NCBI GenBank assembly: GCA_019454765.1
Contig: JACFNR010000030.1
Span: 1 to 35,125, forward strand
Length of the DNA stretch: 35,125 nucleotides
Reading direction: 5' to 3'
Origin: Trueperaceae bacterium
GTDB lineage: Bacteria; Deinococcota; Deinococci; Deinococcales; Trueperaceae
Shown: positions 24,260-26,583 of the stretch, piece by piece
Position numbering within the stretch: the stretch's first letter is position 1
How the letters are laid out: each line of letters opens with the position of its first letter
Made by a program: the position numbers and the translations under genes
Notes under the pieces: model-generated
Database searches by the model: none
Told to the model about the DNA's origin: nothing
What the model saw: the letters and a program-made list of their open reading frames with translations, nothing else

Positions 24260-24565
24260 TCAGGCGGGCGGCGGTTCGCTCGCCTCGGCCGCGCCCCCCG
24301 CCAACTCGAACGCCTCGATCAGGAAGCGGACGGCCGTGCGCTCCTCCTCGTGAAGCTCAAGCTTCACGAACGACGGCACCGTGCGGAGGTCGAGCCCCTC
24401 CGCCTCGATGTACGACCGCGCGATGGCTATGGCCTTGACCGCCTGGTTCACCGCGTGCGGGCCGATGGCCTGGACCTCGACCTCGCGGGCGCTCCTGAGA
24501 AGCGCCGCGATCGCCCCGGCGACCGAGTTCGGCCGGGAAGTTCCGGAGACGCGAAGGATTTCGAT
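24260..24565 (-). CDS. spoVS: Stage V sporulation protein S family protein (SpoVS), apparent ATC start
   Basis: A 101-residue SpoVS protein, an Alba-like small fold probably binding nucleic acid. Conservation with Bacillus and Thermus SpoVS is strong: the opening E-I-L-R-V-S, then RPNSVAGAIAALLR, EVEVQAIGPHAVNQAVKAIA, PSFVKLEL and EEERTAVRF. The family protein begins M-E-x-L-K/R-V-S, so Met-1 aligns with the ATC codon at 24565-24563, with GGAGGT (24576-24571) exactly 5 nt before it. The only upstream in-frame start, GTG 24604, would overlap the -10 box and add 13 unrelated residues. The C-terminal 15 residues are an extra acidic/Pro tail. No sporulation genes are nearby, and in this lineage the role is presumably gene regulation. 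Confidence 0.85.
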   Translation of the reverse strand: MEILRVSGTSRPNSVAGAIAALLRSAREVEVQAIGPHAVNQAVKAIAIARSYIEAEGLDLRTVPSFVKLELHEEERTAVRFLIEAFELAGGAAEASEPPPA

Positions 24566-24570
24566 GTCGG

Positions 24571-24601
24571 ACCTCCATGGGGCTGGGTTACGGGGATTAT
24601 G
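24571..24601 (-). promoter_or_regulatory. spoVS -10 box and ribosome binding site
   Basis: On the minus strand CATAAT (24601-24596, 5 of 6 to consensus) predicts a start of transcription near 24589. GGAGGT follows at 24576-24571. The leader would be about 24 nt. An ATG at 24578 overlaps the GGAGGT but is out of frame with spoVS. Confidence 0.5.
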
Positions 24602-24660
24602 CACCGCGCGAGCAGGCGCCGTTGCCCGCGCGTCACGCTGCCGCGGCAGCGCGACGCGCC

Positions 24661-24689
24661 TTGACACGGCTCCCCGACGCTCGTATAGT
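24661..24689 (+). promoter_or_regulatory. Sigma-70 promoter of the ilv-leu operon
   Basis: A perfect -35 TTGACA (24661-24666), a 17-nt spacer and -10 TATAGT (24684-24689) form the best promoter in the window. Transcription should begin around 24696, right at the leader ATG 24698. It lies about 60 nt from the divergent spoVS promoter. Confidence 0.9.
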
Positions 24690-24697
24690 GCCCACCA

Positions 24698-24769
24698 ATG
24701 ACGGTTTCGCTGCACGGGACTACGATCAGCTGGGGCCTAATTACCAGCTCGTGGGGTCGTGCCGGCTAA
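24698..24769 (+). CDS. Putative ilv leader peptide (23 codons)
   Basis: A short frame from ATG 24698 to TAA 24767-24769 lies between the ilv promoter and the ilv attenuator-type terminator. It has no Shine-Dalgarno, and the predicted transcription start is within about 2 nt of the ATG, so it would be translated as a leaderless frame. Codons 10, 14 and 15 are ATC (Ile), CTA (Leu) and ATT (Ile). CTA and ATT are uncommon in the surrounding GC-rich genes. The branched-chain codon content is modest compared with enterobacterial ilv leaders. The function, sensing Ile/Leu charging by ribosome stalling, is inferred from position only. Confidence 0.55.
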   Translation: MTVSLHGTTISWGLITSSWGRAG

Positions 24770-24823
24770 CCGCCATCTAGCCTGCTCTCGAGCCCCGCCG
24801 CAACCTCGGCGGGGTTTCTTTTT
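24728..24823 (+). promoter_or_regulatory. Putative ilvB attenuator region with alternative hairpins
   Basis: Hairpin A pairs AGCTGG (24728-24733) with CCAGCT (24744-24749), and its 10-nt loop contains the CTA-ATT codons. Hairpin B pairs GGCTA (24764-24768) with TAGCC (24778-24782) across the leader stop. The terminator is at 24793-24814. GTGGGGT (24751-24757) can pair with GCCCCGC (24792-24798, two G-U pairs), which would block the 5' arm of the terminator. The elements are compatible with ribosome-controlled attenuation. The pairings were found by eye and not energy-tested. Confidence 0.55.
24793..24823 (+). terminator. Intrinsic terminator (attenuator) upstream of ilvB
   Basis: CCCCGCCG (24793-24800), loop CAACCT and CGGCGGGG (24807-24814) form a perfect 8-bp stem, followed by TTTCTTTTT (24815-24823). 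It is the only hairpin in the window with a real U tract. It sits between promoter and structural gene, 45 nt before the ilvB ATG, so some regulation must allow read-through. Confidence 0.92.
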
Positions 24824-24868
24824 GAGCGCGGTCGGCAAGCGATTTCGGAGAGGGCGCGGAGGTCATCG

Positions 24869-26583
24869 ATGACGGGTTCGGAAGTAGTGATGAAGATGCT
24901 CGAGCGGCAAGGCGTGGAGGTGATCTTCGGGCATCCGGGCGGGGCCATCATGCCCATCTACGACGCCCTCTACGACTCGCCCATCAAACACGTGCTGGTG
25001 AGGCACGAGCAGGGCGGCGCCCACATGGCCGACGCCTACTACCGCGCCAGCGGCAAGACGGGCGTGTGCTTCGCGACCTCCGGCCCCGGCGCCACCAACC
25101 TGGTGACGGGTCTCGCCACCGCCATGATGGACTCGTCGGCGCTGGTGGCCATCACGGGCAACGTGCCGAGCGGGCTGATCGGCACCGACGCGTTCCAGGA
25201 GGCCGACGTCTACGGCATCACCGGCCCCGTGACCAAGCACAACTACCTCGTCAAGGACGTGGCCGAGCTGCCGCGAGTGATGGCGGAGGCGTTCCACATC
25301 GCCTCGACCGGCCGCCCCGGGCCGGTGCTGATCGACATCCCCAAGGACGTGCAGCTCGCCAAGTTCGAGGGGAGCCTCGACGTGGCCGTCGACCTGCCCG
25401 GTTACCGCCCCACCGTCGTGGGCCACGCCGGCCAGGTGGCGAAGGCCGCCGAGGCCGTGCGCGCCGCGAAGCGGCCCGTCCTCATCGTGGGCGGTGGCGC
25501 TCAGGTTGCCACGCGCGAGGTGGCCGAGCTCGTCGCCCGCACCGGCATCCCGGTCATCACCACCCTGATGGGCATCGGCGCCTACCCACCCGCGGCCGAG
25601 GAGGCGCTGGGCATGCCCGGCATGCACGGCACCGTCACCGCCAACAAGGCGATCAGCCACTGCGACCTCATCCTGGGTGCCGGCCTGCGCTTCGACGACC
25701 GCGTGACGGGCAAGATCAGCCGCTTCGCGCCCAACGCGACCGTCGTCCACATCGACATCGACCCCGCCGAGATCAGCAAGCTCGTCAAGGCGCACGTGCC
25801 GGTGGTCGGCGACCTGCGCGACGTCCTGCCGCGCCTCACCGCGGAGCTGGGGCGCCTCGACATCGACCCGTGGCGCGAGACGCTGGCGGACTGGAAGGAC
25901 ACCTACCCCGAGAAGTACAAGCTCGACAAGCCGCTCGTCTCGCAGGAGATCCTGGCCATGCTGCGCGAGGCGACCGGGGGCGACTGCATCGTGGCCACCG
26001 AGGTCGGGCAGCACCAGATGTTCGCGGCACGGATGCTGCCGTCGACCAAGGCGCGCTCGTTCATCACCTCCGGCGGCCTCGGCACCATGGGCTTCGGCCT
26101 GCCCGCGGCCATCGGCGCCGCCATCGCCAGGCCGGGCGAGACCGTCGTACTCGTGGCGGGCGACGGCAGCATCCAGATGAACATCCAGGAGCTGGCCACC
26201 CTCTACAAGCAGAACGTGCCCGTCATCATCGCCATCCTCAACAACGGCATGCTCGGCATGGTGCGGCAGTGGCAGGAGCTCTTCCACGCCCAGCGCTACA
26301 GCGAGGTCTACCTCGCGGACTCGAACCCCGACTTCGCCAAGCTGGCTGAGGCCTACGGCATCGAGGGGCACAACGTCTTCGACCGCGAGACGGCCCGCGA
26401 GGCCGTCGCGGCCGCCGTGGCCGCCAAGAAGCCCGTCCTCCTCAACTTCTTCGTCTACGAGGCCGAGAAGGTCTTCCCGATGGTGCCGTCCGGCGCCGGG
26501 GTCGACGAGATGATCCTCGGCGATCAGGCGCCGACCGCGCCCGCGCAGGCCGCCGCGGCGCAGAGCGCCGAGGCGGTGACGCG

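Follow-up and report, generated by a model that had tools for sequence, protein, structure and literature searches.

A family-conserved AUC or AUA start codon of spoVS in the Trueperaceae and its probable role in weak translation initiation

The spoVS gene in the window (the whole stretch of 35,125 nucleotides analysed here) raises the question whether it truly starts at ATC and, if so, what such a start would mean for its expression. Few non-canonical starts have been documented in genes other than infC, and gene finders limited to ATG, GTG and TTG are expected to misplace or drop genes that start at AUH (ATC, ATA or ATT in the DNA, hereafter ATH). We know of no sporulation in this bacterial group. 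The comparative evidence shows the ATC to be the position of the spoVS start; also shown are its conservation, the Shine-Dalgarno sequence (SD) and parallel starts in other genes. We consider it likely that this genuine AUC start, together with its strong SD, attenuates translation and probably renders it sensitive to IF3; the attenuation and the IF3 step we infer from the codon class.

The spoVS locus and its first codon

The features of the locus, all on the minus strand, are the following.

24260..24565, minus strand: spoVS coding sequence with ATC start, 101 codons plus stop, identified by PF04232 profile match, translation and family-wide orthologs
24563..24565, minus strand: putative ATC (AUC) start codon of spoVS, aligned with the ATG, GTG, ATC or ATA starts of orthologs
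24560..24562, minus strand: second codon GAA, conserved though GAG dominates, according to ortholog loci and codon usage
24571..24576, minus strand: Shine-Dalgarno GGAGGT, 5 nt 5' of the ATC, read from the sequence and from ortholog SDs
24576..24578, minus strand: out-of-frame ATG overlapping the SD, rejected as a frameshifted start and absent from relatives
24596..24601, minus strand: CATAAT, possible -10 element from a weak sequence reading, directly adjoined by the alternative GTG at 24604-24602

The frame belongs to the SpoVS family, since its match to PF04232 (E-value 2.9e-35) scores 120.3 bits versus a cut-off of 24 and is nearly full-length, covering positions 1-82 of the 83 in the profile. 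Profile position 1 falls on residue 2 of the frame. The nearest solved structure is 2eh1 (E-value 1e-31), and the source genome has a single spoVS copy. The minus strand around the start is ccatGGAGGTccgacATCGAAATCCTTCGCGTCTCC, in which ccat is followed by GGAGGT, the spacer ccgac and the codons ATC GAA ATC CTT CGC GTC TCC (5' to 3'). Translation begins IEILRVSGTSRPNSV..., or in longer form IEILRVSGTSRPNSVAGAIAALL....

An earlier note on this DNA had placed ATC at the first homologous codon, with GGAGGT 5 nt before it, with no close in-frame ATG, GTG or TTG and with GTG 24604 as the in-frame alternative. The first point is borne out by the PF04232 alignment and the minus-strand reading, and motif, spacing and coordinates were correct on re-reading. 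As to the others, the frame is open up to a stop 174 nt upstream of the ATC and holds as canonical codons only GTG at -39 (24604-24602, the alternative named), -102 and -150, none of them with an SD. Downstream, the first canonical codon is a GTG at codon 39, i.e. 38 codons on and inside the conserved domain, so that no canonical start with an SD is found nearby. CATAAT was not picked up by the promoter scan; CAGAAT or CACAAT occurs near its place in some relatives of the same genus. An Rfam search of the window gave no match.

The plus strand of the window at 24661-24869 carries a divergent promoter found by the promoter scan (TTGACA-17-TATAGT, 11 of 12 positions), a possible leader ORF of 23 aa with Val, Leu and Ile codons (24698-24769) and a terminator-like hairpin with a T-run (24790-24817), ahead of an acetolactate synthase gene at 24869. 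This arrangement looks like an ilvB attenuator, for which Rfam gave no match either.

Conservation and history of the start codon

A family search for spoVS gave matches in 34 of 39 genomes, and 35 loci from these 34 genomes were compared. The codon aligned to residue 1 is ATC in 22, ATA in three, ATG in six and GTG in three; the remaining locus (L055) is a divergent copy with ATG one codon earlier. ATC is spread over 12 genera, ATA is found in two more, and ATC is also present in the complete single-contig genomes G036 (3,260,398 bp), G012 and G020. The check proposed in the earlier note, a look at the start codon in independent assemblies of relatives, has thus come out in favour of ATC, with the AUH class conserved across species in 25 of the 35 loci.

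At spoVS, an AUH start is marked by the onset of homology, a well-spaced SD and the lack of a usable canonical start. GGAGG or longer lies 5-8 nt before the start in 23 of the 25 ATH loci, and L021 and L024 have a weak SD only. In a per-column profile of these 25 loci conservation starts at the SD and the start codon, and no conserved sequence was found upstream of the SD. Six (L004, L005, L013, L014, L017 and L056) have no ATG, GTG or TTG back to the in-frame stop, which lies as near as 6 nt upstream in L005, 15 nt in L056 and 21 nt in L004; L017, from a genome of the window's own genus (G022), has an open frame of 105 nt without any canonical start. Nearest canonical codons 3' of the start vary in place among loci. 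In L008, L011, L013 and L014 a second ATC stands one codon 5', which makes the exact start codon ambiguous there. At the second codon, 71 of 76 loci of the order have GAA, a codon that makes up about 20-23% of all Glu codons in two sampled genomes; an initiation region would be expected to show such a preference.

In a GC-rich genome an SD+ATC pair by itself is no more than chance would produce, and several chance pairs turned up in the survey of G036 described below; the spoVS start goes beyond chance because it is conserved across genera. Its presence in 12 genera, its standing as the sole possible start in several of them and its recurrence in finished genomes together identify the ATC, on comparative grounds, as a real start.

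The history of the start was traced on a DnaA+IF3 tree built by a quick method from 35 genomes, for some of which the data were partial. On this tree ATH occurs throughout the family, and the trait ATH versus NTG needs three changes, all away from ATH: g10 and g8 each went to ATG, and g15 to GTG or ATG. ATH looks like the ancestral state of the family's spoVS. Outside the family, 41 sampled Thermus/Meiothermus-type loci (L046-L050, L057-L086) start with GTG (36) or ATG (5), the GTG usually being accompanied by a strong SD; Bacillota and Collinsella have ATG. No Deinococcaceae came up when the class and the phylum were searched. The GTG starts suggest that a weak spoVS start may be favoured more widely, in the Thermus/Meiothermus-type families as well.

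The same start class recurs in other genes of the family. All 29 infC orthologs counted begin with ATA, ATT or ATC; a thirtieth copy (G004) was left out as it looks foreign. Thermaceae-like infC has ATA, in two cases ATC, often directly after a stop. The analogy with infC and IF3 drawn in advance fits these counts. The accompanying view that AUC and AUU starts chiefly concern infC holds for infC itself and is too narrow for this family, since all 30 genomes examined have ATC, ATA or ATT as the start of phoH (PF02562; L255:11051 (-), L291-L320). The ATH of phoH follows shortly 3' of a GAG/GGAGG-type SD, is never replaced by ATG, GTG or TTG and is more strictly conserved than that of spoVS. Thermus-like phoH has ATG, and Meiothermus-like phoH has an ambiguous ATA TTG. 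rsfS (PF02410; L188-L217) is not conserved in this respect: ATH is found in some genomes, such as ATT in G036 and G001 and ATA in G037 and G024, and others have canonical starts. dnaA was considered as a further ATC-start gene and rejected, as it mostly has ATG in the family. The source genome has ATC in spoVS and phoH, ATT in infC and ATG in dnaA.

It is conceivable, though in our judgement unlikely, that the ATC of spoVS is a tolerated and selectively neutral weak start, for which the strong SD suffices and which serves no regulation. Strong SDs at 23 of the 25 ATH loci, the three lineages that moved to ATG or GTG and the GTG of relatives outside the family would all agree with neutrality, and the weak start is not essential because those three lineages have lost it. 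Against this, ATC or ATA persists in deep branches of the family although ATG is a single mutation away, and in the same genomes infC and phoH, but not dnaA, have ATH in every genuine ortholog examined. Most of the family has retained AUC or AUA as the spoVS start, and therefore selection most likely favours weak initiation.

Genome-wide frequency of ATH starts and further readings of the locus

The frequency of such starts was surveyed with a codon-usage gene model on 1.6 Mb of G036 (half of the genome; 1,437 modelled genes), by screening for SD-led ATH or CTG sites near gene starts. As the screen needs a recognisable SD, its ATH count is a lower bound. After sites with a plausible canonical alternative were discarded by reading, about six clean starts were left, i.e. 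about 0.4% of genes: spoVS (ATC), infC (ATA), rsfS (ATT), phoH (ATA) and two ATC candidates. One candidate (868109; L274:8109 (-)) is a thioredoxin-fold membrane protein that has a stop immediately 5' and no canonical alternative, the other (186241; L137:6241 (+)) an FGGY-family kinase. The ATH start is gene-specific in the family, not general.

These figures make it improbable that initiation is relaxed family-wide, so that AUC would be an ordinary start after IF3 or the initiator tRNA had lost discrimination. Several unrelated genes with ATH in the G036 survey and the unusual starts reported for Deinococcus deserti would fit such a loss. However, SD-led sites near gene boundaries show enrichment of ATG and GTG but not of ATC, clean ATH starts are few, and IF3 looks intact: in the source genome it is complete through the C-terminal domain, and both domains align to E. 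coli IF3.

Translation from an upstream GTG (24604, 24667 or 24715), giving an N-terminal extension, is still less probable. The open 174 nt of the window would permit it, yet these GTGs lack an SD, 24604 adjoins the -10-like element, and conservation does not extend 5' of the SD. Moreover, relatives L004, L005 and L013 have stops 6-36 nt 5' with no canonical start between, same-genus L017 has none either, and Thermaceae-like SpoVS genes begin at the same position with GTG.

Sequencing or assembly error, with ATG as the true codon, had been named as the main competing explanation and deserves next to no credence. The window does come from a draft of 93 contigs, and C for G is a single-base difference; error is nevertheless excluded because ATC recurs in 22 independent loci of the family, among them those of the finished single-contig genome G036 and of G012 and G020, and other loci have ATA at this same codon. 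A programmed frameshift into the spoVS frame from the ATG at 24578 (ATGGAGGTC, Met-Glu-Val), whose peptide looks like the MEV with which other SpoVS proteins begin, can be dismissed with similar confidence, as that ATG runs into the SD and relatives that keep SD and ATC lack it.

Probable mechanism and comparison with known systems

For a genuine AUC start of spoVS we propose the following course. The near-perfect SD (GGAGGU, 5 nt) would place the 30S subunit at the AUC, which fMet-tRNA would read with a third-position mismatch, so that SpoVS would begin Met-Glu-Ile-Leu-Arg-Val-Ser. IF3 disfavours AUC, AUU and AUA starts, and the spoVS start appears to have been held in this discriminated class (AUC or AUA) by selection, most likely for weak initiation. 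SpoVS synthesis would then have a low ceiling, and its level would follow the ratio of IF3 activity to 30S subunits. With an SD as strong as this one, much of the output could be regained. infC (which encodes IF3), phoH and spoVS share the start class and could therefore react jointly. From start codons and SDs we infer a low output, a dependence on IF3 and co-regulation with infC and phoH.

The set of phoH, infC and spoVS is the most interesting extension of the finding. We put forward only tentatively, and at less than even confidence, that the Trueperaceae may have a small IF3-keyed translational regulon of AUH-start genes, comprising infC and phoH always, spoVS in most genera and rsfS in some. 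If this is true, it would link the balance of IF3 to ribosomes with rRNA maturation (PhoH/YbeZ type), ribosome silencing and a process controlled by SpoVS. Likewise, if IF3 sensitivity is true, the choice of start codon would serve the whole family as a regulatory code that connects initiation factor supply with ribosome-related genes. spoVS and phoH provide two conserved examples, and the sister lineages with ATG or GTG in spoVS a built-in comparison.

Among the closest known systems is infC (AUU, AUA or AUC, autoregulated by IF3), with the same start class and a strong SD in the same genomes. Unlike infC, SpoVS is no initiation factor, and any IF3 effect would act in trans rather than as autoregulation. 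In the same phylum, unusual initiation codons of Deinococcus deserti are the subject of a 2010 paper by Baudet and colleagues (listed by title among the references of PMC3305630); they reportedly include those of dnaA (ATC), rpsL (CTG), infC and one more gene, and could overlap with the present finding; in contrast, dnaA of the Trueperaceae mostly has ATG. In a literature search of open-licence papers we found none that pairs Truepera with SpoVS, nor, by titles and abstracts, any about a non-canonical spoVS start among the seven listed for SpoVS and start codons.

Outside the phylum, E. coli pcnB resembles spoVS as a non-infC gene with a rare start: its AUU is inefficient and limits expression (Binns and Masters 2002, as cited in PMC13009471). 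It differs in gene, codon and phylum, and was tested experimentally. In S. aureus, expression from conserved AUU and AUA starts with extended SDs is about 10% of that from AUG in poor medium, and for ccpN the output in rich medium is about 30% of that from AUG (PMC13009471). For ccpN (AUA) and cvfC1 (AUU) the starts were located by Ribo-Ret and their output was quantified with reporters (PMC13009471), whereas the start of spoVS is known here from sequence. By analogy, the near-perfect SD and AUC of spoVS would be of the same design as these genes. Non-canonical starts as a kind are thus known from infC, pcnB and S. aureus ccpN; what is new, as read from the family's genomes, is a family-wide conserved AUH start in spoVS, of a class shared by phoH.
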